Shown here piece after piece: positions 8,251-31,537 of a stretch of DNA of 64,000 bases (positions are counted from its first letter, which is position 1; the number at the start of each line of letters is the position of its first letter). The notes beneath the pieces are model-generated. The model ran no database searches. It was not told the DNA's origin and saw only the letters and a list, made by a program, of their open reading frames with translations. This stretch comes from Methylopila sp. M107 (GTDB lineage: Bacteria; Pseudomonadota; Alphaproteobacteria; Rhizobiales; Methylopilaceae), in assembly GCF_000384475.1 (NCBI RefSeq), contig NZ_ARWB01000001.1, positions 3,165,039 to 3,229,038 of the forward strand, given 5' to 3'. A program made the translations under genes and the position numbers.

Positions 8251-8269
8251 AACTGAGCTTAAGTCAATT

Positions 8270-8285: not shown

Positions 8286-8347
8286 CGTGTTATGATTTTT
8301 CAATCGCACGATAGAAAATACAAATAACCCTATCAGGGTGGGCTGTG

Positions 8348-9172: not shown

Positions 9173-9179
9173 TCGATCC

Positions 9180-10502: not shown

Positions 10503-10503
10503 C

Positions 10504-14339: not shown

Positions 14340-15101
14340 TTACTTGCCGCCGGTCACGTCCAGGTAGGTATTCGTGATGAACGAGGCTTCAGAACTTGCA
14401 AGCCAGAGGATCGCTTGTGCGACCTCTTCTGGCTGCCCCCCTCTGCCCATAGGGATGGAGTCCCTGACCCTATCCACTCGACCGGGCTCACCGCCACTGG
14501 CGTGCATTTCGGTGTAGATGTGCCCCGGGCGAATACAGGCCACGCGGATACCCTCGCGGGCGACCTCCTTCGCGAACCCCGTCGTGAATGTCTCTAGAGC
14601 GCCCTTTGACGCGGCATAGTCCACATACTCGTTTGGGCTGCCGAGCCGTGCCGATGCAGAGGAGATGTTGATGACGACGCCGCCGCGACCGTTGTGGCGG
14701 GTCGACATTCGCTTGATCGCCTGCTGCGCGCACAGGATTGGCCCGATTGAGTTGACCGCGAAAATGCGCTGCATTCGCTCGAAGCTTAAATCCTCTAGCC
14801 TGGACTGTTTCGCAATGATCGCGGCGTTGTTCACGAGAACGTCGAGACGACCAAATTTATTGTCGACTTCGGCGAAAAGCTCGATGACGTCCTTTGGATC
14901 TGCGCTATCAGCCCGAACAGGCAAAGCTTTCCGACCAGCCGCTTCGACGTCGGATGCGACAGCTTCAGCGGCTGCTTTGTCGGAGATGTAGCTGATCGCC
15001 ACATCGTAACCGCGCTGTGCAGCTAACCGTGCAGTCGCGGCGCCCATGCCACGGCTTCCGCCCGTAATTAATATTACCGGGGCACTGTTCTCGCTGCTCA
15101 T
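14340..15101 (-). CDS. SDR-family NAD(P)-dependent oxidoreductase
   Basis: Classical short-chain dehydrogenase/reductase of about 253 aa. It has the cofactor motif ITGGSRGMGAATARLA, the NNAAI motif, a catalytic Ser in VINISSASARLG and the YVDYAASKGAL motif holding Tyr and Lys. ATG 15101 is preferred because GGAGG lies 11 bases upstream; a GTG six codons earlier overlaps that ribosome site. The substrate is unknown. Its position inside the phosphonate/C2 block suggests a role with a hydroxylated intermediate, but nothing specific can be read. Confidence 0.88.
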   Translation of the reverse strand: MSSENSAPVILITGGSRGMGAATARLAAQRGYDVAISYISDKAAAEAVASDVEAAGRKALPVRADSADPKDVIELFAEVDNKFGRLDVLVNNAAIIAKQSRLEDLSFERMQRIFAVNSIGPILCAQQAIKRMSTRHNGRGGVVINISSASARLGSPNEYVDYAASKGALETFTTGFAKEVAREGIRVACIRPGHIYTEMHASGGEPGRVDRVRDSIPMGRGGQPEEVAQAILWLASSEASFITNTYLDVTGGK

Positions 15102-15236
15102 ATTATTCGTATCCTCCACCTTATGTAAAATATTTAGATCTCAACGCTTAAACAAGCATATAGCAGATATAAATAGTCCTGACCGAGATTTAAAATAGAT
15201 ATTTTATTTGCTATCATTCAAAAATTAGATACAAAA

Positions 15237-16409
15237 CTAAGCTGATTTAAGTCGTTGTGCGAGGAGTCCCGCGATCGGGAGAGTCGCGAGTGCTGTACTT
15301 GCAGCGCACGATATACCCCACGACTTTCCCGCCGCGTCGCCGACCAGTCCGAAAATCACAGGAGCTAGCGCACCGGAGCCTGAGACGATTGTGTAAAAGA
15401 GCGCGAAAGCATGTTCCACGCGTCCGTCGGGAGCGATTTCGGGCACAGTCCCGTATAGCACCGAGGACGTGCCATTCAGTGCCAAGCCAACCATTGGAAG
15501 GAGAAGCAGCGTCGGCGTCAAAGGCAACGCGATCGTCGCGAATATCAACGCCGCCGTCGCGCCTTCAGTTAGCAGCACCGTTCGGAAGACACCGATACGC
15601 GCGCCCAGCCAAGCGCACGCGAATTTTCCGAGCGCTCCGCCGATGAACACCGTGGCGAGGGAAGTGCCAATCGTCGCAAGAGGCGCCCCTTTGGCCTGCA
15701 GCACGAAGGGCAGGAACGTTAGGAAGCCCATCCGGGCAGCGGTATCCAGCCCGCCAATCGCGCAAAGAAGTCGAAAACTGCGGTGATCGCCCGTCGGCGC
15801 AGCGAAACGATCGGGTTTCTCAACGATCGTCACCTGGATCCTCGGCATTAACGCTACCGCCGTCGCTGCGAGTACGCCCAAGATGGCCACCAGCCATAAT
15901 GCCTGCCGCCAGGCCATCAACGTGATGAGCAGGGATGTCAACGCGGGCAAAGTCGCTTTGCCGAGATCCCCGGAGAAATTGTAGGCGCCAATTGGACCTC
16001 GCGCCGCTCCCTTGAAAGCCCGCGACACCGCAGCCGACGCAATAGGGTGCTGGGTGCTCGATCCGGCTCCACACAATGCCAGTCCGGCGCACAGACCAAC
16101 GGCTCCACCCGAATATCCCGCCACGGCATAGCCGAGCGCAGATAGCAGCGTGCCCGCTGCCAAAATCCGGCGACCATCGATTCTTTCGGCAAGTCGTCCC
16201 GCAGGCACCTGCAGCGTAGCCATGACGCCGGAGTAAATACCGCGAAGCAACGCGAGCACGCTGTAGCTCAGTCCAAACTCCGCCTGCCATATCGGTAAAA
16301 GGACGTATATCAGATCAGTATATCCATCATGCAGAGCGTGCACGACGCCAGCAACTACAAGCGTACGACTGGGAGCGGACGACCGCTCCTTTGAAATGTT
16401 AGAAGACAT
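15237..16409 (-). CDS. MFS exporter of the fosmidomycin-resistance (Fsr) type
   Basis: Twelve-segment major facilitator protein of about 390 aa. The first segment, VVAGVVHALHDGYTDLIYVL, and the following LPIWQAEFGLSYSVLALLR resemble the Fsr fosmidomycin-efflux family, which exports a phosphonate antibiotic. Start choice is uncertain: ATG 16409 gives a conventional short N-terminus, while ATG 16454 adds 15 residues; neither has a clear ribosome site. It is divergent from a LysR gene about 100 bp away, a common exporter/regulator pairing. In this block it could remove toxic phosphonates or act as an importer. The Fsr link is family-level inference. Confidence 0.8.
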   Translation of the reverse strand: MSSNISKERSSAPSRTLVVAGVVHALHDGYTDLIYVLLPIWQAEFGLSYSVLALLRGIYSGVMATLQVPAGRLAERIDGRRILAAGTLLSALGYAVAGYSGGAVGLCAGLALCGAGSSTQHPIASAAVSRAFKGAARGPIGAYNFSGDLGKATLPALTSLLITLMAWRQALWLVAILGVLAATAVALMPRIQVTIVEKPDRFAAPTGDHRSFRLLCAIGGLDTAARMGFLTFLPFVLQAKGAPLATIGTSLATVFIGGALGKFACAWLGARIGVFRTVLLTEGATAALIFATIALPLTPTLLLLPMVGLALNGTSSVLYGTVPEIAPDGRVEHAFALFYTIVSGSGALAPVIFGLVGDAAGKSWGISCAASTALATLPIAGLLAQRLKSA

Positions 16410-16505
16410 CGAATTTTCGGCCACGAGGAGGTGGCAAGTTGCGCCGAACCCCATAATGCGACAAACGATTTTTCCTGACCCATCGCGTGAGAAAATCTGA
16501 CGTCA

Positions 16506-17390
16506 ATGAGTCGACGCCTTCCTCCCATGAACGCACTGAGGGCTTTTGAAGCCGTCGGTCGCCATTTGAGTTTCACGCGCGCAGCGAGAGAGCTCAACGT
16601 TACGCACGGAGCGCTGAGCCGTCAGGTCCGACTCTTGGAGGAATGGTTCGGGCGCGCGCTTTTCAAGCGTGGAAACCGTCGAATCGACCTTACCGAAAGC
16701 GGCGCAGCCTATCTGGTTGAAATCAGCGCCGCGTTGGATCGAATCACAGCTGCGACCACTCGGCAGTTTGAGCACCACGAGGTCCGACTGTTGCAGGTAA
16801 ACGCCTTGGCCACCTTTACGCTGCGCTGGCTCATTCCCCGTCTGTCCTCGTTCCAGCGCCGGCATCCGGGCGTTGAAGTACGGGTGACGACCTCCAATAC
16901 GCCCTTGCATGATCTTCGAGGTCCTTACGACGTCGCGATACGCGGCGGACCCGATCGCATCCCGGCTCACGTCGTGCAGAAATTCCTTTCAGAGACGCGC
17001 ATCCCTGTCTGCAGCCCAAAGCTTCTCGAACAAAGACCGATATGTCATCCCCGTGACCTCGCCAAACATACGCTGCTTCATGCCGCAACCCTTCCCGAGG
17101 TCTGGTCCCAATGGCTCGTGGCAGCACGGGTCTCGAACTTGAAACCGGCCGGCTCGGTCACCCTCGAGCATTTTTATCTGACGCTTCAAGCGGCGCTAGA
17201 TGGAGTTGGCGTCGCCATGGGACCGACGGCGCTGGTCGCGGACGACGTTCTGGCTGGCCGCCTCGTTATGCCTTTCGCCGAGCCTGCGCTTCCGGCCAGA
17301 AGCTATTTCACCTACGTCCCAAATGATTGCGCGGAAGATCCGGCAGTGAGATCGTTTTGCGAGTGGTTACGTCGAATATCGTTGGCGTGA
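16506..17390 (+). CDS. LysR-family regulator (GcvA/AmpR-like)
   Basis: LysR-type regulator of 294 aa. The N-terminal helix-turn-helix reads LSFTRAARELNVTHGALSRQVRLLEE, with the GcvA-style lead PPMNALRAFEAVGRH. The effector domain includes FTLRWLIPRLSSFQRRHPGVEVR and the late LDGVGVAMGPTALVADDVLAGRLV motif. It is divergent from the Fsr-like MFS gene and upstream of the phosphonate transcript starting at 17574, so it may control either. The effector cannot be inferred from sequence. Confidence 0.9.
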   Translation: MSRRLPPMNALRAFEAVGRHLSFTRAARELNVTHGALSRQVRLLEEWFGRALFKRGNRRIDLTESGAAYLVEISAALDRITAATTRQFEHHEVRLLQVNALATFTLRWLIPRLSSFQRRHPGVEVRVTTSNTPLHDLRGPYDVAIRGGPDRIPAHVVQKFLSETRIPVCSPKLLEQRPICHPRDLAKHTLLHAATLPEVWSQWLVAARVSNLKPAGSVTLEHFYLTLQAALDGVGVAMGPTALVADDVLAGRLVMPFAEPALPARSYFTYVPNDCAEDPAVRSFCEWLRRISLA

Positions 17391-17573: not shown

Positions 17574-18683
17574 ATGACCCAACTTTGGAGATACACTAAC
17601 CCGGTAGAGATCACGTTCGGCATTGGCGCTATAGGAGAGCTAAAGCAGAAGATCGCGGGTCGCAATTACTGCATCGTGACCTACGGCGACAATCCGTCTT
17701 TTGTGGATCTCGCTCGCAAAATCGAGCATGACGCTGGTCCTGCTCTCGTAACGATTCGAGACGTTGAACCAAATCCGAGCTTCATTGGGCTGCGCGTCGC
17801 TTGCGCCTCGCTCTCGGCAAGCCCGAAGGAGCCTGAGGTAATCGTCGCTCTCGGAGGTGGGTCTGTCATCGACACCGTGAAGGTGCTCGCGGCAACAGGT
17901 TCCGATTTTTCGCGCGTTCAGGCCTATTTGGAAGGCCGCGCCGGTCCAGAGACCCTATCAAGCACACCGATTATCGCCGTGCCCACCACTTCCGGCACGG
18001 GCAGCGAAGTTACCTGCTGGGCAACGGTTTGGGACACGGAAGCGAAGAAGAAATATTCGCTTGCCCGGCCGAACCTGTATCCGGAATGCGCGATCCTCGA
18101 CCCAGCTCTCACCGTCGGCGTGCCGAAGTCGCTCACGCTCAGCACTGGTCTTGACGCCCTTTCACATGCACTGGAAAGCATCTGGAACGTCAACGCCAAT
18201 CCGGTCTCGGCCAACCACGCCGTGTTCGCAGCAAGCGAGGTCCTCGAGGTCCTGCCAAGCCTTCTGGATAACCTTGACGACGTGGAAAAACGCTCGCGGA
18301 TCGCACGTGCGAGCATGTCGGCCGGTCTCGCCTTCTCCAATACCAAGACGGCGCTCGCGCATTCGCTTTCGTACTACCTCACCCTTCACCATGGCACCGT
18401 GCACGGCATCGCCTGCTCGTTCAGCCTCCCCGCAGTCATGCGAAGCGTGATCGGGCGCGACGCCAACTGCGACGCCGTGCTCAAGCGCATCTTCGGTACC
18501 GACCTCAATCGCGGCGCGGACAACCTCGAAGCCTTCATCACGGGCCTCGGCGTTTCAACCAAGGCGACGGACTATGGTGTCGCGCAAAAAGATTGGGTTG
18601 ATGCGATCGAAGACGCCCTGGTGGGTGAGCGAGGCCGCAACTTCATCGGCACCCGCGAAGCCGTTCTGGCCGCAGCAGCATAA
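17574..18683 (+). CDS. Phosphonate-metabolism-associated iron-containing alcohol dehydrogenase
   Basis: Group III metal-dependent alcohol dehydrogenase, 369 aa. NAD-binding features are VALGGGSVIDTVK near residue 92 and PTTSGTGSEVT near 137. Metal ligands expected for the family are at Asp194, His198 (GLDALSHALE), His263 (LAHSLSYYL) and His277 (HGTVHGIACSFSLP). The sequence matches what I recall of the phosphonate-operon Fe-ADH subgroup (TIGR03405 type) and PhpC-like phosphonoacetaldehyde reductases. It is first in a run phnA-KPR-OPA-EH-fosX. A plausible reaction is oxidation of 2-hydroxyethylphosphonate to phosphonoacetaldehyde, or the reverse; this is inferred. The start has GGAG seven bases upstream. 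Confidence 0.87.
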   Translation: MTQLWRYTNPVEITFGIGAIGELKQKIAGRNYCIVTYGDNPSFVDLARKIEHDAGPALVTIRDVEPNPSFIGLRVACASLSASPKEPEVIVALGGGSVIDTVKVLAATGSDFSRVQAYLEGRAGPETLSSTPIIAVPTTSGTGSEVTCWATVWDTEAKKKYSLARPNLYPECAILDPALTVGVPKSLTLSTGLDALSHALESIWNVNANPVSANHAVFAASEVLEVLPSLLDNLDDVEKRSRIARASMSAGLAFSNTKTALAHSLSYYLTLHHGTVHGIACSFSLPAVMRSVIGRDANCDAVLKRIFGTDLNRGADNLEAFITGLGVSTKATDYGVAQKDWVDAIEDALVGERGRNFIGTREAVLAAAA

Positions 18684-18697
18684 TTGGAGCAACAGTG

Positions 18698-19948
18698 ATG
18701 ACCTCTCAAACTGAAACCGGCTCTGACATCATTGCAAACGGCCGTAGCTATCGCCGGCCTGGAAAGCCCGTCGTGATCGTCTGCATCGACGGTTCGGAGC
18801 CTGGATACATCGAGGCCGCAATCGAAAAGGGGCTCGCCCCAAACCTCGATCGCCTAATGAAGACGGGTGCCAACACCACTGCGCTGTGCGTCATTCCGAG
18901 CTTCACCAATCCCAACAACTTATCGATCATCACCGGCCGTCCGCCGGCCGTGCACGGCATTGCCGGCAACTTCTTCTACGACCGCGAGTCGGGTGAGGAA
19001 GTAATGATGAACGACGCCAAGTTCCTCCGCGCCCCGACGATCCTGGCCGAGTTGCAGAAGGCTGGCGTGAAGGTCGCAATGGTAACGGCTAAGGACAAGC
19101 TGCGGACGTTGCTCGGCAAGGGCTTGGACTTCGCCTCCGGCTCCGCAATCGCGTTCTCTTCGGAGAAGGCAGACAAAGCCACCAAGGACGACAACGGCAT
19201 AGATGACGTTCTGAATTTCGTTGGACTGCCGCTTCCTGAGGTCTATTCCGCCGACCTCTCCGAATTTGTTTTCGCAGCTGGTGTCAAGATCCTCAAGACG
19301 TTCAAGCCGGACGTTATGTATCTTTCGACAACTGACTACGTCCAGCACAAAGCCGGGCCGGGCGCCAAGCTCGCCGACGCCTTCTACGAGATGTTCGACC
19401 GCTATGTCGGCGAACTCGATGCGCTCGGTTGCACACTCGTCATGACCGCCGACCACGGGATGAACGACAAGCACCTGGCGAATGGCGAGCCGGACGTGAT
19501 TTACTTACAGGAGATCCTGGACAAGAAGCTTGGAGCTGGCGCGGCGCGCGTCATTCTCCCGATTACCGATCCATACGTCGCCCACCACGGGTCGCTTGGC
19601 TCGTTCGCAACGGTATACGCCGACGAGGACAAGCGCGGCCCTATTATCGACATCCTGAAGGGCATCGACGGTATCGACGTCGCGATCCTTGCCGACGAGG
19701 CATGTAAGCGCTTCGAACTGCCGGCCGACCGCATCGGCGACGTCGTCACCCTGTCCTCAAAAAACAAGGTGATCGGGACCTCGCCGGCGAAGCACAACCT
19801 GTCCGGTCTCACTGAGCCACTGCGCTCGCATGGCGGCCTTACCGAACAGACTGTGCCGATGATCGCCAATAGGAAGATCGAAGTGCCCGCAGGTCGAACG
19901 CTTCGGAACTTTGACGTCTTCGACGTAGCCCTCAACTTGGTCCGCTGA
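18698..19948 (+). CDS. phnA: Phosphonoacetate hydrolase
   Basis: Zn-dependent C-P hydrolase of the alkaline phosphatase superfamily that cleaves phosphonoacetate to acetate and phosphate. The 416-aa length matches the family (about 415-425 aa). Metal and nucleophile features are Asp31 in VIVCIDGSEPG, the nucleophilic Thr70 in PSFTNPNNLSIITG, a TTDYVQHK segment and MTADHGMND. The C-terminal LRSHGGLTEQTVPMI segment carries the last metal histidine. ATG 18698 is preferred over GTG 18695, with GGAG nine bases upstream. It follows the Fe-ADH by 14 bases and needs PhnY (27608) to supply phosphonoacetate. This is distinct from the unrelated E. coli protein also called PhnA. Confidence 0.93.
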   Translation: MTSQTETGSDIIANGRSYRRPGKPVVIVCIDGSEPGYIEAAIEKGLAPNLDRLMKTGANTTALCVIPSFTNPNNLSIITGRPPAVHGIAGNFFYDRESGEEVMMNDAKFLRAPTILAELQKAGVKVAMVTAKDKLRTLLGKGLDFASGSAIAFSSEKADKATKDDNGIDDVLNFVGLPLPEVYSADLSEFVFAAGVKILKTFKPDVMYLSTTDYVQHKAGPGAKLADAFYEMFDRYVGELDALGCTLVMTADHGMNDKHLANGEPDVIYLQEILDKKLGAGAARVILPITDPYVAHHGSLGSFATVYADEDKRGPIIDILKGIDGIDVAILADEACKRFELPADRIGDVVTLSSKNKVIGTSPAKHNLSGLTEPLRSHGGLTEQTVPMIANRKIEVPAGRTLRNFDVFDVALNLVR

Positions 19949-20018
19949 CCGGCTTGCTCAACGTCCTGCGGCGATGTCCGCCGCAGGACGCCCGTCGCCG
20001 TTTTCAAGGGAGGACGAC

Positions 20019-21086
20019 ATGACGCTTTATCGCGTCTTGGTTGTAGGGGCCTCGTACGGGTCTTTGCTCGCGAGCAAGCTGCTGCTCGCTGGGCATCAGG
20101 TGACGGTCGTCTGTTTCCCCGACGAGGCGGAGGTCATCAATCGGATCGGCTTACGTCTCGACATTCCGACTAAAGCGCATGGCTTGGTCGAAATCGACTC
20201 ACGACAGTCGCCGGGAACACTCTCCGCGATCGGCCCTGATGGAATAGATGTCGCGGCGTTTGATCTCGTCTGCCTTGCGATCCAAGAGCCGCAATGTCGG
20301 GTCGAAGCAATTCGGAGACTGCTCAAGGCGGTGGCAGCGTCGAATGTGCCGGTTATGTCCGTCATGAACATGCCGCCGCCTCCCTACCTTTTCCGCGTTC
20401 TCGGCGTCTCCCCTGACGTCCTCCGTCACGCTTACGTGGATCTGGAGCCTTGGTGCGATTTCGATAACGCGCGTTTTACCCTTTGCAGCCCCGATCCACA
20501 GGCGTTTCGCCCCCCTGGCGCCCCTGCGAACCAGATGAGGGTTTCGCTTCCTACAAACTTCAAGGCTGCGAGATTTCCATCTGATGCCGACACCAAAATT
20601 CTGCGGGATCTGGCTACTGGGATCGACGCGGTCAGATGGTCGTCGCATGGCTCGCTCATCGAACTGCCGGTCAAACTCAAAGTGCATGACAGCAGCTTCG
20701 TCCCTCTCGCCAAGTGGGCCATGCTACTGACCGGGAACTACCGCTGCGTGACCTCAAACGGTCCAATCAGCATCGCCGAGGCGGTGCACTGCGACATCGA
20801 TGTCTCACGCGGAATCTACGAGTGGGTTTCTACCGTTTGCTTCACGCTTGGCGCGGCGACGGAGGATCTCGTCCCATTCGAAAGATACGCTCACGCAGCT
20901 GAAGGGCTGACTAAGCCATCATCTGCGGCTAGGGCTCTGTTCGCGGGCGCGCATCATATCGAGCGCGTTGATCTTCTTGTCCAAAGTCTTGCTGCCAATC
21001 ACGGTCTTCAAAATCGTTTCGTCGACGGAACCGTCGAGGCCGTTAATGATCGTTTGTCTCAGAACCGTCGCTCGATACATCACTGA
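20019..21086 (+). CDS. Ketopantoate-reductase-like (ApbA/PanE N-domain) protein
   Basis: Protein of 355 aa with an N-terminal dinucleotide-binding fold: YRVLVVGASYGSLLASKLLLAGHQVTV, a variant of the GxGxxG motif reading GASYGS. A second region, DLVCLAIQEPQ, fits the ketopantoate reductase superfamily. The C-terminal half does not clearly show the catalytic Lys/Glu arrangement of PanE, so it is unlikely to be a pantothenate enzyme. ATG 20019 is supported by AAGGGAGGA. It sits between phnA and the OPA transporter in the phosphonate run, suggesting oxidation or reduction of a phosphonate hydroxy-acid; the substrate is unknown. Confidence 0.75.
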   Translation: MTLYRVLVVGASYGSLLASKLLLAGHQVTVVCFPDEAEVINRIGLRLDIPTKAHGLVEIDSRQSPGTLSAIGPDGIDVAAFDLVCLAIQEPQCRVEAIRRLLKAVAASNVPVMSVMNMPPPPYLFRVLGVSPDVLRHAYVDLEPWCDFDNARFTLCSPDPQAFRPPGAPANQMRVSLPTNFKAARFPSDADTKILRDLATGIDAVRWSSHGSLIELPVKLKVHDSSFVPLAKWAMLLTGNYRCVTSNGPISIAEAVHCDIDVSRGIYEWVSTVCFTLGAATEDLVPFERYAHAAEGLTKPSSAARALFAGAHHIERVDLLVQSLAANHGLQNRFVDGTVEAVNDRLSQNRRSIHH

Positions 21087-21321
21087 CATGTTAGGCAGCA
21101 TCAGATCCCGGCCTCAAGACCAGTAAAGTCTAGCCTTCACGTTGCTCTTCGTGCGTCACAATCTCAGCCGTGAAGCCACATGCAAGGGAGCCAATGTGCC
21201 GCCTCCCGGATCGATATTTTCTATACTTCCCGAGAGGAAATGAATTAGCGAAAGCATCCATGAGCGCCCAATCTTCCATCATTATTGCTCCAAAAGAGAG
21301 CAGAATAAGGGGATACGCTCA

Positions 21322-22605
21322 ATGACCACACATCCTATTGATATTGGGGTCACGCCCACCGTCGCACAGAGTTTCCGACGGGCTCAGTGGAAAATGCTTT
21401 TCGCCACTATGTTTTGCTACCTGTTCTTCTATACAGGTCGGCAAACATTCGGATTTGCAATTCCAGGCATTCAGGCCGAGCTCGGGTTTTCCAAGGCGCA
21501 GCTTGGATGGGTGAGCGCCACGATGCTATGGTGCTACGCGATCGGCCAGGCGATCAACGGCAACCTTGGCGACAAATACGGCGGCCGGCGCATGATGACG
21601 GCCGGCGCCGTGTTTTCGTGCGCAACCAACTGGGTCCTCAGTTTCTCTACCGGGCTCTTCTCCCTTGGCGCTCTATGGGGCGTGAATGGCTACTTCCAAG
21701 CACTAGGTTGGGCACCAGGAAGTCGTTTGCTGTCGAATTGGTGGGGCTCCAGCGAAAGAGGCAAGGTATACGGCTTTTATTTGTTCGCATCTGGTTCTGC
21801 GGCAATAATGTCATTCTTGACATCTGTTATCATTATCGACGTAATGCACCTTGACTGGCGATGGATATTTCGCATCCCGGTTCTATTGATGTTGTTCGGC
21901 GGAATTACGTACTTCTTTATTGTTAGAGATAAGCCAGAGGATCTGGGATTCAAGTCGCCTCACGACGACGACGCTTTGCAAGCTGGTCCTGACGCCGGCG
22001 TTGATTCAGGCGAAAGTTCCTTTCAGCGCTACAAGGCAGTGCTTAAGAACTGGCGACTATCGGTAGCTGGGCTGACAATTGGTTTTGCCAACGCTGCCAG
22101 GTACGGACTTATCGTTTGGGTGCCCGTTCATTTTCTAGGTTCTGGCCTCGCAACAGCACCGGGCGGCCGCTGGATCAGTATTGCATTGCCCTGCGGGATG
22201 GCGATTGGCGCCATCACGAACGGCTGGGTTTCGGATCGGGTCTTTGGCTCTCATCGAGGTAACGCCATCGGGCTCTACATGCTGCTCGCTGTTGTATCGA
22301 CTGGCGCGATGTATTTCGTTCCGCACGACCAACGTATGCTAGGCATTGCAATGCTTTTTTTAAGCGGCTTTTTTGTTTTCGGGCCTTATGCATCTCTCTA
22401 CGCGCTGTGCCCGGATCTGGTCGGTGTGAAACGCGCAGGAACCGCTACCGGCATCCTTAACTTCTTTTCGTATGCCCTTGGCGGTCTTATTGAGCCGCTG
22501 ATCGGCTGGATTCTCGATCACTATCCCGATACTTCGAACGTGTTTTTGGTAGTGTGCGTCGCGAGCGCGCTCGGGTTTTTAACATCACTCTTGATCAAGC
22601 GGTGA
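21322..22605 (+). CDS. OPA-type MFS transporter (GlpT/UhpT-like), copy 1
   Basis: Twelve-segment transporter of 427 aa in the organophosphate:phosphate antiporter group. The N-terminus has FCYLFFYTGRQTFGFAIPGIQ, the loop GNLGDKYGGRRMM, and WAPGSRLLSNWWGSSERGKVYG, features shared with GlpT-like carriers. A second copy at 29148 is closely related along its length. OPA carriers exchange phosphate for organophosphates and, in E. coli, import fosfomycin, so this is the likely phosphonate importer. Its stop overlaps an in-frame ATG upstream of the next gene, so expression is probably coupled. Confidence 0.88.
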   Translation: MTTHPIDIGVTPTVAQSFRRAQWKMLFATMFCYLFFYTGRQTFGFAIPGIQAELGFSKAQLGWVSATMLWCYAIGQAINGNLGDKYGGRRMMTAGAVFSCATNWVLSFSTGLFSLGALWGVNGYFQALGWAPGSRLLSNWWGSSERGKVYGFYLFASGSAAIMSFLTSVIIIDVMHLDWRWIFRIPVLLMLFGGITYFFIVRDKPEDLGFKSPHDDDALQAGPDAGVDSGESSFQRYKAVLKNWRLSVAGLTIGFANAARYGLIVWVPVHFLGSGLATAPGGRWISIALPCGMAIGAITNGWVSDRVFGSHRGNAIGLYMLLAVVSTGAMYFVPHDQRMLGIAMLFLSGFFVFGPYASLYALCPDLVGVKRAGTATGILNFFSYALGGLIEPLIGWILDHYPDTSNVFLVVCVASALGFLTSLLIKR

Positions 22606-22637
22606 TGGTCAAACGTGAGTTAAGAGGATTGCGCTCA

Positions 22638-23528
22638 ATGCAGATCAAACACTGCCGCACCGGCGAGCTCGACGTCGCCTACGAGGAACTGGGACCATCA
22701 GATGGGTTTCCCGTGATTTTCCTTCACGGGTTCCCCGACGACCCACGCACGTGGGATGAGGTTGTCCAACCCATTGCACAGGCGGGACACCGAACGATCG
22801 CGCCATATCTTCGAGGCTATGGGAAAACGCGCTTCTTGAACGAGAGCCATGTCGGGAGCGGCCAGCAGGCCGCTCTCGGCAAGGATCTCCTTGATCTCAT
22901 GGATGCTCTCCAACTCAAAAAAGTAGGCTTGGTTGGGTACGACTGGGGCGGTAGAGCGGCTTGCGTGGTCGCCGCCCTGTGGCCTGAGCGCGTCCGGTGG
23001 ATGGTGTCGATCGGCGGCTACCACATTCAGAACATCGCCAACGCGCACATCCCCGCCGATCCCGAGCAAGAACGCCGTTTTTGGTACCAGTTTTATTTTG
23101 GGACCGAGCGCGGAGTGCTCGGTCTGACAAAGAACCGCTACGCCTTATGCAAACTGTTGTGGGAGCTTTGGTCGCCAAACCTGAGGTTCTCCGAACAAGA
23201 ATACGCGCGCACCGCCGCGGCGTTCGACAATCCCGCCTTCGTCGATATCGTCATCCACTGTTACCGCCACCGCTACGGAAACGCTGATGGCCATGCGGCT
23301 TATGACGCAATCGAGCGAGAGCTGGCTCGTCTGCCTAAGATTAGCGCGCCGACGATCGTCCTTCACGGCGGCACCGACGGCTGCAAGCCGCCAACAGACT
23401 CTTCGAGCCACGACAAGTATTTCGATGGTCGCTACGAACGCCGGATCTTGGCCGAAGCCGGGCACATACTGTCGCGCGAAGATCCCGAGGCGGTCGTGCG
23501 CGCGATCTTGGACGTTTCACGCGATTAA
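22638..23528 (+). CDS. Alpha/beta hydrolase, epoxide hydrolase or dehalogenase type
   Basis: Alpha/beta-fold hydrolase of 296 aa. It has the oxyanion motif HGFP (residues 30-33), typical of epoxide hydrolases, an aspartate nucleophile at Asp102 in VGYDWGGRAA, and the catalytic histidine in LAEAGHILSRE. An Asp nucleophile flanked by Trp indicates epoxide hydrolase or haloalkane/haloacetate dehalogenase chemistry rather than an esterase (Ser). ATG 22638 is chosen because AGAGGA lies about 9 bases upstream; ATG 22605 overlaps the transporter stop and is an alternative. It directly precedes fosX, an unrelated epoxide-opening enzyme. Confidence 0.85.
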   Translation: MQIKHCRTGELDVAYEELGPSDGFPVIFLHGFPDDPRTWDEVVQPIAQAGHRTIAPYLRGYGKTRFLNESHVGSGQQAALGKDLLDLMDALQLKKVGLVGYDWGGRAACVVAALWPERVRWMVSIGGYHIQNIANAHIPADPEQERRFWYQFYFGTERGVLGLTKNRYALCKLLWELWSPNLRFSEQEYARTAAAFDNPAFVDIVIHCYRHRYGNADGHAAYDAIERELARLPKISAPTIVLHGGTDGCKPPTDSSSHDKYFDGRYERRILAEAGHILSREDPEAVVRAILDVSRD

Positions 23529-23581
23529 ACACACGCAACGTGGCCTTAGCGGAATTGCAAAAAGATAAGTCAGGAGAAAAA

Positions 23582-24001
23582 ATGACCGAAGGTATCAGTC
23601 ATATCACGTTTATTGTCAAAAATCTTGAACGTACGGCAAGGATATTTGTTGAAGCACTACGAGGCCAAGAAGTATACTCAAGTGGCGATGAAATGTTTTC
23701 CGTTAGTCGCGAGAAATTCTTTCTCGTAGGAGGGCAATGGATTGCGATCATGGAAGGTGAAGCGCTGCCTGAGCGTACGTACAATCATGTTGCCTTTAAA
23801 ATCCGGCCGGGCGAGGTCGATGAGTATCGCGCGGCGTTAGAGAAACTTGAAATCGAAATCAGAATTCCAAGATCTCGCGTTAATGGCGAGGGCGAGTCGA
23901 TCTATTTCTACGACTACGACAATCACACCTTCGAGCTGCATACCGGGACCCTTGAAGAGCGCCTTAAGCGCTATGCGCACGGCGTAAATCCTACCGACTG
24001 A
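23582..24001 (+). CDS. fosX: FosX-type fosfomycin hydrolase
   Basis: Metal-dependent epoxide hydrolase of the vicinal-oxygen-chelate (glyoxalase) fold, 139 aa. FosX adds water to fosfomycin, giving 1,2-dihydroxypropylphosphonate. Expected Mn ligands are all present at the canonical numbers, His7 (ISHITFI), His69 (TYNHVAFK) and Glu118 (HTFELHTGT), and the general base specific to FosX, Glu44 (SVSREKFFL), is conserved. That separates it from FosA (glutathione) and FosB (bacillithiol). AGGAG precedes ATG 23582. The FosX described from Mesorhizobium loti also lies in a phosphonate operon, so a catabolic rather than purely protective role is possible here. Confidence 0.92.
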   Translation: MTEGISHITFIVKNLERTARIFVEALRGQEVYSSGDEMFSVSREKFFLVGGQWIAIMEGEALPERTYNHVAFKIRPGEVDEYRAALEKLEIEIRIPRSRVNGEGESIYFYDYDNHTFELHTGTLEERLKRYAHGVNPTD

Positions 24002-24038
24002 AACGTCTCGCCGACATGCTGGATCGCTCGAAGACGTC

Positions 24039-24802
24039 TTGAAGGTCATGACCCGGGCCGCCGAAAAAGCGGGCCGGGGCATTCGTCGCGACTTTCGCGC
24101 GCTAAACCAGTTGGAGGTGACAACGATAGGGCCTGGCGGTTTCGTATCGGAGGCGGATCACCGCGCCGAACGCTCACTAGCCAGAGAACTTGGACTTGCC
24201 GGCCCGGGCTACGGGTTTCTCATGGAGGAGGCTGGCAAGGGCGATCGCCAGAATTAGTGGATCATCGACCCGCTCGACAGCACCACCAACTTTAACACGG
24301 CCTACCCCAAATTCGGCATTTCCTTGGCGCTGGTGCGCGCAGGCGAGATTGTCGCCGGTGTCGTGTTAGATCCGATTACGAGAGAAATGTTTTGGGCTAC
24401 ACGTGGCGGCGGATCTTTCATGGATGGGCGATCGATCAGGGTTTTGTGCCGCACGTCGCTCAACTAAGCTGTTGCCGCTGCTGGCATCCCCCATTTGGAC
24501 AAGGCTGATCGCCTCCCATTCCCGCCGTGAGCTTGCACTTGTACAGGCCGAAGCGGCCGGCGTCCGCCGCTTCGGCTCGGCTTGGCTTCGCTAGATGGCG
24601 CGATGGTCGCAGCGGGCCGACTTGATGGCTATTGGGAGAGAGATTTTAAAGCTTGGGACCTGGCGGCCGGACGGCTTCTGCTTACGGAAGCGGGCGGCGC
24701 GGTCAGCGACGTCTGAGGCGCCGACGACATACTAAGCAGCAGCACGATCATCGCCGGCAATGATCACATTCATCGGCGGCTGCTCGTTCTGGTCACGGCT
24801 TA
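24039..24802 (+). pseudogene. Degraded inositol-monophosphatase-family gene
   Basis: Fragments of a SuhB-like phosphatase occur in order but in different frames with stops. The first frame gives MTRAAEKAGRGIRRDF, GFVSEADHRAE and GYGFLMEEAG, then a TAG at 24256-24258 immediately before WIIDPLDSTTNF, where the usual Gly of the metal motif is Ser. Reading continues to SFMDGRSIRV, then shifts. Later fragments are [43 protein letters not shown] in the shifted frame, a TGA, and SSTIIAGNDHIHRRLL. At least two indels and several stops make a product impossible. It directly follows fosX, so the lost phosphatase was probably part of that transcript. Confidence 0.9.
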
Positions 24803-24833
24803 ATCACCGCCGATCCCGGCTTGCGTTTCAAAA

Positions 24834-24863
24834 CAAAAAAGGGCCGCCCCTTTGGGGGCGGCC
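24834..24863 (-). terminator. Rho-independent terminator of the aldehyde dehydrogenase gene
   Basis: GGCCGCCCC (24842-24850) and GGGGCGGCC (24855-24863) form a perfect 9-bp GC stem with a TTTG loop. On the minus strand the stem is followed by a run of six T, the classic intrinsic terminator layout, about 100 bases past the stop of the gene at 24966. The plus strand has no T-run after it, though it could also stall readthrough from the fosX side. Confidence 0.8.
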
Positions 24864-24965
24864 AAGTGGGGAGGGCGAGGGCAACTCCTCGCGATCCTTG
24901 CCGCAGCCGGCGTCGGGAGTGCGCCTGCAGCAAGCTTGTTGCGGATCAGGTTCCCGGCGGCACCA

Positions 24966-26426
24966 TCACCAACGCATGTTGACGTTTTTTGTACGGGTGT
25001 AGCTAAGCACCTCAGAAAAGCACTCCTCTTCGCCGATACCGCTCTGCTTCCAGCCACCGTAGGGAGCGCCCAAGTATCGGCCGTTCGAGTTGATCCAGAC
25101 ATAGCCGGCGTCGACCCGGTCAGCGGTCTCCATCGCTTTGGCGAGGTCATTGGTGACGATCGCCGCTGTCAGGCCGTATTCGAGGCCGTTGACCTTCTCA
25201 AGCATGTCCTCGTAGTCGTCCCACGAGAACACCGACATGACCGGGCCAAAAATCTCTTCGCGGCCAATCTTCATGTCCGGGGTGACCCCATCGAAAACGG
25301 TCGGTGCGATGAAGAAGCCGCGATCGAGTGAGGAATCCTTAGGCTTGCCGCCGCCCGTAAGGAGCTCTGCGCCTTCGCTCTTTCCTGCTTCGATGAAGGA
25401 CATCACTCGATCGAACTGCCGCTGGGACACGATAGGACCCACATCGTTCTCATTGAACCAGGGCATGCCAATCGGTAGAGCTTCGGAAAGGCGGACTAGT
25501 TCGTCAGTGACTGCGCGACGCAGTGAGCTGTGAACAAAGACGCGAGACGTCGAGCTGCACGACTGTCCCTGCCGGTTCATATTCATGCCCTTGATCGCCG
25601 CGGCCGCCGCCTTTTTTGGGTCGGCATCAGGGAAGATGATGATCGGGTTCTTGCCGCCGAGCTCAAGTGTCAACTTTTTTAGGCCGTCAGCCGCCTCCCG
25701 GGCGATGACGCGGCCGGTAGCGACAGAGCCCACCAGGCCGATGCGCTGGATATCAGGATGACGAACAAGCGCAGACCCAGTCGCTCCGTCGCCGGTGATG
25801 ATGTTTATGACGCCTGGCGGGAAAATACCTTCGCACAGCTCGCCCAGCCGCAGGCTCGATAGAGGCGCCTGCTCCGATCCCTTGATGACCACGACGTTCC
25901 CGGCAGCAAGCGGCGCTGCCGCTTTCTCGGCACAGAAGCGGAAGGGATGGTTGAACGGGTTGATTTTAGCGACGACCCCGTAGGGCTGACGTCTCGTGAG
26001 ATTAAGATGCCGAGGACCCTGCGAAAAGGTCTCACCTTTTACTTCGGTAATCAGTCCAGCGCAGTATCGGAGCGATGCCGCGCTCCACGCCATATCACCG
26101 CGCATACCCACAATAGCATTGCCTGAGTCGACAGAGTCGATCAGTGCGAGCTCGTCAGCATGCTCCTCGATCTTATCAGCGAGAAGCTCCAGACAACGCG
26201 CGCGCTCAGTAATTGATACCCGAGACCACTCCTTAAAACCCTTTTTGGCCGCATCCACTGCGACATCAACGTCCTGAGCTGTAGCGAACGGAACCTCGCC
26301 AAGCGTCTCGGAATTGGAAGGATTGATAGTCGCAAAACTTTTGCCTTCCAGCGGTGCAACCCACTTGCCACCTATGTATAAGCCGCGCGCTTTAAACCCA
26401 AGGTCTGGGGTCTTCGTGCTGTTCAT
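24966..26426 (-). CDS. NAD-dependent aldehyde dehydrogenase (betaine-aldehyde type)
   Basis: Aldehyde dehydrogenase of 486 aa. It has LYIGGKWVAP at the N-terminus, INPFNHPFRFCAEK, the NAD region IGLVGSVATGR, the catalytic Glu in TLELGGKNPIIIF, the catalytic Cys in NRQGQSCSSTSRVFVH, and EEIFGPVMSVF. GGGGGAGG precedes the ATG. It is on the strand opposite the phosphonate run and shares a long AT-rich upstream region with phnY. It is not the PhnY orthologue (that is at 27608). It may oxidise another aldehyde of the pathway, for example one derived from a three-carbon phosphonate, but this is not shown by sequence. Confidence 0.9.
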   Translation of the reverse strand: MNSTKTPDLGFKARGLYIGGKWVAPLEGKSFATINPSNSETLGEVPFATAQDVDVAVDAAKKGFKEWSRVSITERARCLELLADKIEEHADELALIDSVDSGNAIVGMRGDMAWSAASLRYCAGLITEVKGETFSQGPRHLNLTRRQPYGVVAKINPFNHPFRFCAEKAAAPLAAGNVVVIKGSEQAPLSSLRLGELCEGIFPPGVINIITGDGATGSALVRHPDIQRIGLVGSVATGRVIAREAADGLKKLTLELGGKNPIIIFPDADPKKAAAAAIKGMNMNRQGQSCSSTSRVFVHSSLRRAVTDELVRLSEALPIGMPWFNENDVGPIVSQRQFDRVMSFIEAGKSEGAELLTGGGKPKDSSLDRGFFIAPTVFDGVTPDMKIGREEIFGPVMSVFSWDDYEDMLEKVNGLEYGLTAAIVTNDLAKAMETADRVDAGYVWINSNGRYLGAPYGGWKQSGIGEEECFSEVLSYTRTKNVNMRW

Positions 26427-27607
26427 CGTTCCTCCCCCGGCCGCTTCGTAATGGCGGCCGCTAAAGCAATTTAGCTGCCTATTTCTTAGAATTGCTTCGC
26501 CGTGAGCTCAGCAGCGTACCTCGTACACTGCACCGCTGAGCGGAGCGGACAACTCGACCAGCTAAGGCGAGCCAGATCGAGACCGCAGCGTTATTTTAAT
26601 GATCAGCAGGATAAAAATACCGATTTTCGTGGCATCTATATACAAAATCAATGTGGGGGATATTGATCAAACCAATGGTCTCAGAGAAATAATGAATTGC
26701 CCTCTATTAATGCGATATAACATACGACGTATGTTTCGCGCTGAAGACCAGCAGGAACCAAAAAAATTCAAACTATCATATCAAGATAAGTCTATTACAA
26801 AATATGTACATTAACTAGATAATATAAGCGTAGTTATAAATGACTTTCAATGGATGGATTAAACCATGGTGGACAAAAATCGCCGAACGGTCCTTGTTGT
26901 TTGCGATAGTCGCAGACGCGATCTTGTTTAGGCAAGAACTCACCGACTATTTGTAACCCGCGAAAATGAGTTCGATGAAGATGGGATGGATGGTCACTGT
27001 CTAAAATATACGTAAACCAACACCGCGATTATGTGTGGCCGCGAATTGGGTAAATTAGGCATCGTTGTTTCGCATGATATGGCGTTATCAGGCATAATGA
27101 ACTCGACTATACGATAATGCTGACTATGTCATAATATCTGTCGCTCAGAGTTGTCTTCGCTAGAAATAAGGCGTCACGACGAAAAATGTTTAAATTCTTA
27201 CAGAGGGGCTATAATGTTAGATGCAGAATGTCAACCTTTCAGATACGGCACGAGTAGAAGTAGCAAATAGCGGGACGTATATTGTTATGCAAATCAATTA
27301 TATATCTCATGTGCACAATCTCGTCTTGAGAAATATCTCGTATCGGTTTTTTGTATAGGCCTCCAAAAACTATCAATTGGACGACCAGCATCCGAGCCGC
27401 GTCTATCGGGTTGGGATGAGGAAGCAGATTAGATGCGCCATTAGGTCGGATCCTGAACGCTCGCCGATTGGCTCGACGCAAGCTAATCGCAGATTGCAAG
27501 CCGCGCCTTCGGGTTTTTACGAGCGAAAATAGCATTGCGCAGGCTATGGCGCGTCAACTTCCATCGATGCGAAAGACACTCGCCTCTCTATAACATGGTG
27601 AAATGGC
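26427..27607. other. AT-rich divergent intergenic region with possible gene remnant
   Basis: This 1.18-kb region separates two divergent aldehyde dehydrogenase genes and is much more AT-rich than the rest of the window. It must hold both promoters. Open frames such as 26599-26814 lack ribosome sites and family resemblance. From ATG 26866 a short frame reads RRTVLVVCDSRRRDLV then stops; that phrase resembles the start of alkaline-phosphatase-superfamily proteins, and ELT follows in another frame, so a decayed gene is possible. Confidence 0.35.
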
Positions 27608-29059
27608 ATGACTGTTCAGAATAAGCTCCCATTCCGTCAAGAGGCGATGCGTATCGCAGGCAAGTTGGTCAATACAGACAACATTGTCGAAGTGTTTAAT
27701 CCCTATGATAATTCCTTAGTTGGTACGGTGCCAGCTGCTCGTGAGGAGCATGTTCGAGACGCCTTTCAAAAAGCCCACGCTTTCAAGCCCAAGCTCACGC
27801 GGTATGAGCGTCAACAGATCTTGCAGAAGACGGCGGAGCTTCTCCGCGACCGCCGAGACGAGTTTGCGCGGCTGATAGTGGCCGAAGCCGGACTGTGCTG
27901 GAAGGATGGTCTCTACGAGGCGAGCCGCGCCTATGATGTGTGGTCATTCGCGGCTCAGCTTACCATTAAAGACGACGGTGAAATATACTCGTGCGACATT
28001 TCTCCAAACGGAAAGGCGCGCAAAATCTTCACGACGCGTACCCCGTTGCTAGGAGTAATTTCAGCCATTACACCATTTAACCATCCACTCAACATGGTGA
28101 GCCATAAACTCGCGCCTGCGATTGCGACCAACAACCGGGTCGTGCTTAAGCCGACCGAGCTCACGCCGCTCACGGCGCTCGCACTCGCTGACGTGCTCTA
28201 CGAGGCGGGTCTGCCGCCCGAGATGCTGTCTGTCGTGACCGGCAATCCGTCGACTATGGGCGACGCTATGATCACCGACCCGGACGCCGACCTTGTGACG
28301 TTCACGGGCTCGGTACGCGTGGGCAAGCATATCGCCAATACCTCGGGCTACAAGCGAACTGTACTTGAGCTAGGCGGCAACGACCCTCTAATTGTCATGG
28401 AGGATGCAGACCTCGACCGCGCCGCAGATCTTGCGGTCGCGGGAGCGACGAAGAACTCCGGCCAGCGATGCACAGCGGTCAAGCGTATTCTCGTGGTGGA
28501 GAGCGTCGCGGACGAATTTTCCAGGCTCGTAGTCGAGAAGGCCAAAAAGCTGAAGTCTGGCGACCCGATGGATCCCGCGACTGACGTCGGCACGGTGATC
28601 AACGAACGCTCCGCCATCCTGTTCGAAAACCGCGTCAACGACGCTGTGTCAAAGGGTGCCGAGGTCCTGCATGGCGCACCGCGCCAGGGCGCTCTCTTCG
28701 CTCCAACGGTCGTCGATTACGTGCCCTATGACTGCGAGCTCGTCCACGAGGAGACGTTCGGGCCCGTGATCCCGATCGTACGCTGCCCGGACGACATCGC
28801 TGAAGTCATCCGCATCTCGAATTCGACCAACTACGGCCTATCGTCCGGCGTCTGCACCGACCGTCTCGACTACGTCTCGCGGTTCGTCAGCGAACTTGAG
28901 GTCGGCACCGTTAACGTCTGGGAAGTCCCGGGCTACCGCATCGAGATGTCCCCATTTGGCGGCATCAAGGATAGCGGCCTCGGCGACAAGGAAGGCGTCG
29001 TCGAAGCCATGAAGGGCTTCACTCACATACGCACGTGGTCGATGCCTTGGGCTGACTGA
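27608..29059 (+). CDS. phnY: Phosphonoacetaldehyde dehydrogenase
   Basis: NAD-dependent enzyme (483 aa) that oxidises phosphonoacetaldehyde to phosphonoacetate, the substrate of PhnA. The sequence follows the Sinorhizobium PhnY pattern closely from memory: [13 protein letters not shown] at the N-terminus, [34 protein letters not shown], the catalytic Cys288 in [13 protein letters not shown], and the C-terminal [18 protein letters not shown]. These segments distinguish it from generic aldehyde dehydrogenases. No strong ribosome site is visible before ATG 27608. It is followed 88 bases later by the second OPA transporter on the same strand. Confidence 0.93.
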
Positions 29060-29147
29060 GCCAGGTATAACACGCAGATTCACAGCAAATGAACGCGGAA
29101 AAATAAGCAAAAGCTATATCCGCACAAATCCCCTGGGAGGGATTCTC

Positions 29148-30455
29148 ATGAGTTCGGTTAATTTAAATGCGCCAAGCCGTAGCGGCTTGAGCGCAAATGA
29201 CGACGCTTTCCGTCGCGCACAATGGCGGATGCTGCTTTCTGCGATGTTTTGCTATCTGTTTTTTTATACTGGCAGGCAAACCTTCGGCTTCGCAATACCG
29301 GGCATCCAGGCCGAGTTCGGCGTTTCGAAGGAGACGCTGGGCTGGGTGAGCGCGGCGCTACTCTGGTGCTACGCGGTTGGCCAAGCGATCAACGGCAACC
29401 TCGGTGACAAGTTCGGCGGTCGCCGGGTGATGAGCGCCGGCGCCATACTGTCCTGCGCTGCCAACTGGGCGGTCAGCTTCTCGACGGGCGTACTAAGTCT
29501 CGGGGCGCTTTGGGGGCTGAACGGGTATTTTCAGGCTATGGGTTGGGCCCCAGGGAGCCGGCTACTCTCGAATTGGTTCGGACGACACGACCGCGGGCGC
29601 GTCTTTGGATATTACGTCTTCGCTGCTGGCATGGCTTCGGTGCTGTCCTTCGTAACCTCTCTCGTCGTGGTGCATACACTACATCTCGACTGGCGATGGA
29701 TATTTAGGCTCCCGGTCTTGCTGATGCTAATCGGTGGCATTGCGTTCTACCTCATCGCCCGCGAGCGTCCCGAAGACCTCGGTTTCAAATCTCCACATGA
29801 CGATGCGATCAACGTCGAGCAGGCCGGCCGAGTTGAGGACGACGAGACATCTTGGCAGCGGTACAAGGGGGTGCTGAAGAACTGGCGGCTTTTGGTCGGC
29901 GGCCTAGCCATCGGTTTTCAAAACGCCGCTCGTTACGGACTTCTGATCTGGGTCCCAGTCCACTTTCTAGGCGATAACTGGGCGAAAGCGTCAGCCTCAA
30001 CATCGGTCATCGACCCCAAGTGGATCTCGATCGCGCTTCCTGTCGGCATGGCGATTGGCGCCGCCACCAACGGATGGGTGTCGGATAAGATCTTCGGATC
30101 GAAACGCTACCTCGCCATCGTGCTCTACATGGCGCTGGCGACGGTCGTCTCGCTTTATATGTATACGATTCCCCGCGAGGAAATTTATCTGGGCTTGGTC
30201 GTGCTCTTCCTCTGCGGCTTCTTCGTCTACGGTCCTCAATCGTCATTCTGGGCACTTTGCCCGGACCTGGTAGGACATAAACGCGCCGGCACCGCAGTCG
30301 GGGTCATGAATTTCTGCGCCTATCTGTTTGCAGGCCTTGGCGAGCCTCTAATTGGCAAATTTATGGATACACACCACGATACGTCGTTAGTGTTTCTGAT
30401 TGTCGCTGCGGCCAGCGGGGCGAGCGCCGTTGTTGCGCTATTTATTCGGCGATGA
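29148..30455 (+). CDS. OPA-type MFS transporter, copy 2
   Basis: Twelve-segment organophosphate-antiporter-like carrier of 435 aa, a close paralogue of the protein at 21322. It shares SAMFCYLFFYTGRQTFGFAI, GDKFGGRRVM, WAPGSRLLSNW and RYKGVLKNWRLLVGG. The middle loop (about residues 215-235) and the segment before WISIALPVGMAIGA differ most, the latter having an insertion relative to copy 1. GGGAGG precedes the ATG. It likely forms a transcript with phnY, ended by the hairpin at 30479. Two copies in one locus suggest two substrates, or uptake and exchange roles. Confidence 0.88.
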   Translation: MSSVNLNAPSRSGLSANDDAFRRAQWRMLLSAMFCYLFFYTGRQTFGFAIPGIQAEFGVSKETLGWVSAALLWCYAVGQAINGNLGDKFGGRRVMSAGAILSCAANWAVSFSTGVLSLGALWGLNGYFQAMGWAPGSRLLSNWFGRHDRGRVFGYYVFAAGMASVLSFVTSLVVVHTLHLDWRWIFRLPVLLMLIGGIAFYLIARERPEDLGFKSPHDDAINVEQAGRVEDDETSWQRYKGVLKNWRLLVGGLAIGFQNAARYGLLIWVPVHFLGDNWAKASASTSVIDPKWISIALPVGMAIGAATNGWVSDKIFGSKRYLAIVLYMALATVVSLYMYTIPREEIYLGLVVLFLCGFFVYGPQSSFWALCPDLVGHKRAGTAVGVMNFCAYLFAGLGEPLIGKFMDTHHDTSLVFLIVAAASGASAVVALFIRR

Positions 30456-31535: not shown

Positions 31536-31537
31536 CA

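Follow-up and report, generated by a model that had tools for sequence, protein, structure and literature searches.

A rare insert in a probable PsrA-PhnY-PhnA phosphonate pathway of Methylopila sp. M107

How can phosphonoacetaldehyde dehydrogenase (PhnY) and phosphonoacetate hydrolase (PhnA) be supplied with substrate when PhnW, with which the aminoethylphosphonate pathway begins, is not found? This question is raised by a locus of Methylopila sp. M107 at positions 17574 to 30455 of a 64,000-nucleotide stretch (the window), which corresponds to 3165039-3229038 of the complete, single-contig 4.45 Mb genome. An earlier note on this DNA had proposed a catabolic route in which imported epoxy- or hydroxy-phosphonates are opened, oxidised and passed on to PhnY and PhnA by a gene set that its author did not know as a described pathway. 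Our analysis suggests that the locus is probably a PsrA-PhnY-PhnA hydrolytic phosphonate pathway, into which a rare insert has been placed.

Ten proteins of the window were scored against NCBIfam and Pfam using the curated cut-offs. The first gene of the locus, psrA (17574..18683, plus strand), encodes a phosphonate-type iron-containing alcohol dehydrogenase (Phn_Fe-ADH; TIGR03405 437.6 bits, cut-off 423.7). The protein spans the whole profile (1-355 of 355) and carries the motifs GLDALSHA and AHSLSYYLTLHHGTVHG, which we take to be the metal ligands; the patterns used for them are narrow and matched 59 and 63 of 85 psrA homologues. Only 11 bp behind psrA starts phnA (18695..19948, plus strand; TIGR02335 532 bits, cut-off 407.55), whose product aligns from residue 11 to 413 with the solved PhnA 3szy (E 3.5e-165) and shares the stretches PSFTNPNN, TAKDK and MMND with other canonical PhnAs. 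Further downstream follow phnY (27608..29059, plus strand; TIGR03250 782.3 bits, cut-off 635.65; best solved match 4i3t, E 2.6e-201) and OPA2 (29148..30455, plus strand), the importer of the core operon, relatives of which come after phnY in contiguous operons. Together with FosX (see below), the dehydrogenase, PhnA and PhnY named by the earlier note are all supported by scores above the curated cut-offs. Of its two OPA importers, OPA1 and OPA2, two MFS carriers with OPA-type models as best matches remain, both scoring below cut-off.

The lack of PhnW, previously noted for the window only, extends to the complete genome: four matches to the PhnW model (TIGR03301) are present and none is over the cut-off of 360.8 bits. 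The best one (154.1 bits) adjoins an open reading frame read, without scoring, as a hydroxyacid dehydrogenase. The match inside the window is BhcA (6980-8170), which was rejected as a hidden PhnW, since it scores 706.8 bits with its own aminotransferase family and 114.2 bits with PhnW. The PhnW model itself gave no score over cut-off in 14 control genomes, yet it did so in 6 of 18 other genomes. Three C-P cleaving families were tested, PhnA, PhnX and PhnJ, and only PhnA is present, with one match in the genome. PhnJ (PF06007) gave no match here in a search that detects the control in E. coli, and PhnX gave three weak matches, none over cut-off, in a search without a positive control over cut-off. 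Thus, PhnY and PhnA of the PhnWYA aminoethylphosphonate pathway are both found above their curated cut-offs, whereas its PhnW is not.

What PsrA might do is suggested by the company of its gene. The comparison set comprised the best 80 of 220 named psrA loci, among them many from Reyranella and several on short contigs, and the counts depend on the tblastn thresholds chosen. Here, phnA was found in 28 loci, phnY in 23, phnX in 5, phnW in 3 and OPA2 in 14, phosphonate ABC genes in 48 and the psrA-linked type of LysR in 65; FosX and ALDH2, an aldehyde dehydrogenase of the insert, were found in two each, the epoxide hydrolase in one, and the PanE2-type gene and C-P lyase in none. At least one of phnA, phnY, phnX and phnW lies near psrA in 32 loci, and for 29 of these phnW is not in the stretch. 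In Leisingera, psrA is accompanied by a phosphonate ABC transporter, phnA and phnY, and Agrobacterium and Comamonas have it together with phnX. A tree built from 86 psrA proteins places a phnX-linked member inside the phnA-linked clade (7-row set, support 99/91). Within the order, 16 of the 397 genomes sampled have psrA over cut-off, and nine of them, the window's own included, have phnA within 4 kb of it (places compared by eye); the same holds for Hansschlegelia beijingensis, where psrA scores 416.4 bits, just under the cut-off. The other seven have phnC, phnD and phnE matches beside psrA in six cases, and in the seventh psrA lies at a contig end and no partner was found. The core operon therefore recurs, and NCBIfam holds a family for the dehydrogenase, so that the gene set can no longer be called undescribed. 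Many of the loci L135-L166 (L numbers are our handles for loci), mostly from Reyranella or Rhodospirillales, have psrA together with phnDCE and short-chain dehydrogenase genes and lack, within the stretch examined, every C-P hydrolase that was sought.

Phosphonoacetaldehyde is the common substrate of PhnY and PhnX (PMC12366243). The gene psrA is found with phnY-phnA or with phnX, and in most cases phnW is not nearby; the simplest role for its product is then to make phosphonoacetaldehyde, and the substrate of an alcohol dehydrogenase yielding this compound would be 2-hydroxyethylphosphonate. Judged by gene context, the most likely role of PsrA is the oxidation of 2-hydroxyethylphosphonate to phosphonoacetaldehyde, in the place of PhnW. 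This is the part of the earlier interpretation that gene context supports. In the PhnW check of 18 psrA genomes, which were picked from the 80 loci, are drafts of unstated completeness and include one known beforehand to carry phnW (L122), 12 showed no PhnW over cut-off.

Several observations weigh against our reading of the locus. The remaining six of these 18 genomes do have PhnW over cut-off, and phnW lies near psrA in three of the 80 loci, including that of H. beijingensis, which belongs to the window's genus group. Furthermore, phnA, phnY, phnX and phnW are all missing within reach of psrA in 48 of the 80 loci, some of them on short contigs, and phosphonate ABC genes are present in 38 of these 48. 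For the insert, the grouping of ALDH2, epoxide hydrolase and FosX described below rests on two loci. Finally, similar genes have been read as making 2-hydroxyethylphosphonate from aminoethylphosphonate, with PsrA as a reductase (PMC9381506). PsrA would then be a PhpC-like phosphonoacetaldehyde reductase and the locus would not be catabolic for 2-hydroxyethylphosphonate; a Vibrio relative is also named phosphonoacetaldehyde reductase. Nevertheless, no PhnW over cut-off is present here to turn aminoethylphosphonate into phosphonoacetaldehyde, phnA follows psrA at a distance of 11 bp, and psrA is accompanied by phnX or by phnY-phnA, both of which consume phosphonoacetaldehyde. We consider the reductase quite unlikely.

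With PsrA as the oxidising enzyme, the following course is proposed, in which all substrates are those that we infer. OPA2 would import the phosphonate, PsrA would convert 2-hydroxyethylphosphonate to phosphonoacetaldehyde and thereby replace PhnW, PhnY would oxidise the aldehyde to phosphonoacetate and PhnA would cleave the latter into acetate and phosphate. For the last two steps the function is established for the families, to which the proteins belong by their scores. The insert would add ALDH2, a second OPA carrier, an epoxide hydrolase and FosX. Here, ALDH2 may widen the range of phosphonates reaching PhnA, and the epoxide-opening pair would either be part of this extension or protect against fosfomycin-like epoxides brought in by the importers.

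The insert is evident from the distance between phnA and phnY, which is 7659 bp in the window vs 6-101 bp in all 26 comparison loci where the matches to the two genes are nearly complete (taken between the ends of tblastn matches, loci with partial matches excluded). None of the 26 has an insert at this place. It contains the PanE2-type gene, OPA1, the epoxide hydrolase, FosX, a broken phosphatase gene and, on the opposite strand, ALDH2, and furthermore an AT-rich stretch without an open reading frame of 100 residues; the GC content is 0.48 in the two 1-kb bins covering 26000-27999. Insertion repeats were looked for around it and only weak repeats were seen, none noticed to mark both ends.

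ALDH2 (24966..26426, minus strand) is the second aldehyde dehydrogenase of the locus, whose presence the earlier note had correctly recognised. It stays below the cut-off of each of the 25 families shown and is not a PhnY, as it reaches 229.3 bits with TIGR03250 vs the cut-off of 635.65. Relatives in four other loci are 71-80% identical to it, in contrast to 27-31% for two PhnYs; the five proteins are 71-93% alike and 27-32% identical to the two PhnYs. A full-length phnA is nearby in three of the four loci, and the fourth (L134, a psrA locus from Acetobacteraceae; ALDH2 relative 72%, 71% in the full alignment) has psrA and a phnA fragment (57% over 20% of the length). The relatives in L134 and in Methylobacterium sp. 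J-070 (L195) came from loci selected for psrA. When 215 genomes of the class were searched without selecting for phosphonate genes, two more appeared, both 73% identical and both in phnA operons (L214 and L215). Due to this, ALDH2 looks like a PhnA-linked aldehyde dehydrogenase. Further close relatives were not seen among 17 other family members or in 22 plasmid records (all below 60%, best shown 52%), and 156 genomes of presumed Methylobacterium, among which J-070 was evidently not drawn, gave one match of 47%.

The J-070 locus resembles the window most in this respect. It has psrA-phnA-phnY-OPA2 as well as ALDH2 (80%), the epoxide hydrolase (68%) and FosX (54%), and it is the only one of the 80 other psrA loci with these three together. 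It differs in that the three genes are placed after OPA2 on the same strand, in the lack of a PanE2-type match and in a second phnA upstream. This second copy (L195 1005-2252) is 80% identical to that of the window; the two J-070 copies are about 9 kb apart, and a Mutator-type transposase gene lies in the gap.

L214 and L215 share with the window ALDH2, phnA (48-49%) and a LysR gene (42-43% to the phosphonate-type LysR of the window), in the order LysR-phnA-alcohol dehydrogenase-ALDH2. They differ from it by an HpnZ-like alcohol dehydrogenase (TIGR03366 284 bits, cut-off 328.1) in the place of psrA; no phnY match is present in the stretch examined, which for L214 ends just past ALDH2. Their PhnA reads VVMTG vs VMMND in the 42 closest PhnAs, which may point to another acid as substrate, and the same position varies in four other divergent PhnAs too. 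A separate phosphonate pathway made up of this variant PhnA, the HpnZ-like alcohol dehydrogenase and ALDH2 is possible. In L215, ALDH2 is followed by TRAP-like transporter genes, read from the open reading frames and unscored. In the window genome itself, HpnZ was sought elsewhere and gave eight matches, none over cut-off. Divergent phnA genes, 45-48% identical to that of the window, are also seen on plasmids of Rhizobium (L224) and Phyllobacterium (L225), where the next gene carries the annotation alkaline phosphatase family protein and transporters come after it.

These relatives bear on whether the insert has a common function at all. A mosaic of genes that were acquired horizontally and came together by chance would be in line with the broken phosphatase gene, the GC content of 0.48 in the two bins, the PanE2-type gene, which in its sampled loci keeps other company, and the absence of the insert from this place in all 26 comparison loci. 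However, such a mosaic would not explain that ALDH2, the epoxide hydrolase and FosX stand together again beside psrA-phnA-phnY in J-070, nor that close ALDH2 relatives occur in four other loci with full-length phnA or, in L134, with psrA and a phnA fragment, two of these four having been found independently of any phosphonate gene. A mere mosaic is therefore unlikely in our view.

The alpha/beta hydrolase (22605..23528, plus strand; start chosen at 22605 instead of 22554 of the open reading frame list) was already called epoxide-hydrolase-like. Alpha/beta-fold epoxide hydrolases are diagnosed by an Asp nucleophile in G-x-D-x-G together with two lid tyrosines. The protein has the Asp-nucleophile motif GYDWGG, and its segments WYQFYF and CYRHRY align by eye with the lid tyrosines of solved relatives, the best of which is the putative epoxide hydrolase 5bov (E 3.1e-80). 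By these residues, it is a predicted epoxide hydrolase. Its presence in phages was rejected; of 42 phage records, the three listed show 24-25% identity. Its start overlaps the stop of OPA1 (TGATG), and FosX lies 53 bp after it, which suggests that the importer and both hydrolases are probably co-transcribed. FosX (23582..24001, plus strand; ATG at 23582 chosen instead of the listed GTG at 23540) scores 203.5 bits with NF000222 (cut-off 170) and has the equivalents of H7, E44, H69 and E118 of the M. loti FosX (alignment, positions by eye), residues with presumably catalytic roles. By score and residues it belongs to the FosX/FosE/FosI hydrolases and is predicted to be a fosfomycin hydrolase.

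The pair may be catabolic or protective. Fosfomycin is imported by GlpT-type carriers. Detoxification of fosfomycin-like epoxy-phosphonates let in by the OPA-type carriers, with no part in catabolism, would fit this mode of entry, the score of FosX over the cut-off of a resistance hydrolase, its expected residues and the probable co-transcription with OPA1. On the other hand, it would leave ALDH2 unexplained, which belongs to the same grouping in J-070, as well as the position of FosX in C-P lyase operons, observed in 6 of 20 FosX loci fetched out of the 37 genomes (of 397) with FosX over cut-off. Also, a low fosfomycin activity has been reported for the M. loti enzyme (PMC6122793). A purely protective role is possible, although on balance we doubt it.

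In the opposite direction, the earlier note had joined both hydrolases into one linear route, in which epoxy-phosphonates are opened, the diol is oxidised by the dehydrogenases and the product passes through PhnY and PhnA. The two epoxide-opening enzymes, ALDH2, psrA, phnA and phnY are indeed co-located here and, in differing order, in J-070, and the psrA genes of both are sisters, though weakly (96/49). But fosfomycin would give a three-carbon diol, and the missing chain-shortening step, which the earlier note had itself conceded, was likewise not identified by us, no systematic search having been made. In addition, the epoxide hydrolase occurs in one and FosX in two of the 80 other psrA loci, the FosX proteins of window and J-070 are just 54% identical, the 26 comparison loci lack the insert, and the single other trio stands after the importer gene. 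A linear route is thus very unlikely. FosX near psrA is also seen in Roseovarius aestuarii (L189). A conserved pairing of FosX and PhnA was rejected: among the 37 FosX genomes, the two lie within 20 kb of each other only in the window's genome (by eye; drafts can hide pairs).

The first gene of the insert (19974..21086, plus strand) had been called ketopantoate-reductase-like. The protein is present, whereas the label is weak: Pfam ApbA (PF02558) matches with 22.5 bits vs 22.2, no NCBIfam family matches and the best solved match has an E of 0.34. Homologues were matched in 80 of the 397 genomes of the order. Since some relatives adjoin oxc and frc genes, PanE2/ApbA2-like is the better name, and this placement follows from gene context. 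Several of these loci carry oxc, frc or glycolate oxidase genes, and ApbA2 of C. necator, a relative of the M. extorquens PanE2, has been tied to CoA-acylating glyoxylate dehydrogenase activity (PMC7486775). However, it is the other copy in this genome (52% identical) that groups with the oxc-linked L036, L037 and L077 (support 1.000). The window copy falls outside this oxc-linked group, by which PanE2/ApbA2 CoA-acylating glyoxylate dehydrogenase is recognised. In 40 places sampled among the 80 matching genomes (four plasmid regions were also fetched), neither phnA nor FosX was seen, nor phnY or psrA close by; phnX, phnCDE and C-P lyase were not queried. A phosphonate enzyme was therefore rejected. 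As a further candidate, the HAEP racemase PbfF was considered for PsrA or the PanE2-type protein and rejected, since neither matches the pfam02826 given for PbfF in PMC12366243.

Next in the insert is OPA1 (21322..22605, plus strand; TIGR00881 190.7 bits, below the cut-off of 407.75), the second OPA-type MFS carrier, 64% identical to OPA2. Between fosX and ALDH2 lies the remnant of an inositol-monophosphatase-family gene (24039..24760, limits approximate, plus strand). Two of its four frame pieces match Inositol_P (24324-24464, 29.6 bits; 24582-24713, 48.1 bits); the pieces 24039-24254 and 24190-24366 gave no match. The PanE2-type gene and this remnant are probably passengers.

A bolder reading would join the rest. 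ALDH2, the epoxide hydrolase and FosX together with PsrA and PhnA might form an unrecognised route for epoxy- or vicinal-diol phosphonates: after opening, PsrA and ALDH2 would oxidise the primary alcohol to alpha-hydroxy-phosphonoacetate, from which PhnA would release phosphate and glycolate, and the latter would enter via the products of glcDEF and the beta-hydroxyaspartate-cycle genes, which lie some 4.5 kb upstream. For PhnA, a review mentions a weak activity on 2-phosphonopropionate (PMC10574752), which suggests that a substituted carbon is acceptable to PhnA. A two-carbon epoxide would fit this route, fosfomycin only after losing a carbon. We regard it as a long shot.

The surroundings of the locus contain further genes. 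Just upstream (window 3838-13112) are bhcDCBA and bhcR of the beta-hydroxyaspartate cycle and glcFED for glycolate oxidase; bhcA-D, bhcR and glcF are over their own cut-offs, glcE and glcD are not. Beside the bhc genes, a LysR of the aminoethylphosphonate type (2468-3352; 277.8 bits vs cut-off 341.1) is 39% like the LysR usual beside psrA. The LysR directly preceding psrA (16506..17390, plus strand) is of the GcvA subfamily (NF008352 321.3 bits, cut-off 288) and matches the type of 65 of the 80 other psrA loci at just 35% over 127 residues. Divergent from it, with 51 bp to its start, is an MFS transporter gene (15237..16454, minus strand; Pfam MFS_1), with a 58% relative in the J-070 locus. 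Other possible accessories are a short-chain dehydrogenase (14340..15119, minus strand; Pfam adh_short_C2), 84% identical to one downstream of OPA2 in L119, from a genome of the window's genus group, and a metallophosphoesterase-like protein (13255..13947, minus strand; Pfam Metallophos 33.1 bits, residues 1-71), for which the same locus, again past OPA2, has a match of 55% that covers 57% of the protein. DUF47 and Pit-type phosphate-transporter genes (30891-32545) follow on the same strand, 435 bp past OPA2. RNA features were not detected between 12000 and 34000 at Rfam gathering scores.

2-Hydroxyethylphosphonate and methylphosphonate are reported to account for up to 20% of the phosphorus that marine high-molecular-weight organic matter contains (PMC9381506), and use of the former has been described via C-P lyase (PMC5649143). 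If true, the hydrolytic PsrA route would be a second fate for this compound. As far as the passages of the open-licence PMC literature retrieved here extend, a 2-hydroxyethylphosphonate dehydrogenase route is represented only by a hypothesis on a different enzyme family (PMC12366243) and by the reductive reading (PMC9381506). The core operon recurs, and FosX in a phosphonate operon has already been described for M. loti (PMC6122793, PMC9304900); the new lead is ALDH2. As a marker of a PhnA-linked aldehyde dehydrogenase clade, it could point to phosphonates not yet known as degraded, and the link of FosX is relevant to the question of a catabolic origin of FosX.

Compared with known systems, the locus shares single parts with two of them and its whole core with a third. 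As in the C-P lyase phn operon of Shinella (L205), and as reported for Mesorhizobium loti, FosX lies amid phosphonate-use genes. There the order is phnGHI-fosX-phnJKL, whereas the window genome has no PhnJ match and thus lacks the gene that marks this type. With the phnWAY aminoethylphosphonate pathway of S. meliloti (L200) it has PhnA (62%) and PhnY (65%) in common, while L200 differs in that it begins with PhnW, has an aminoethylphosphonate ABC importer and shows no psrA match in the region shown. The third is that on a plasmid of Ensifer sp. PDNC004 (L199). Unlike in the window, its phnA and phnY are adjacent, its divergent LysR is of a different type, and FosX, the epoxide hydrolase, ALDH2 and the PanE2-type gene have no match there. 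Like the window genome, it shows no PhnW match (tblastn, 25 kb), and as LysR-psrA-phnA-phnY-MFS it has all four core genes in the same order as the window, at 71-86% identity.

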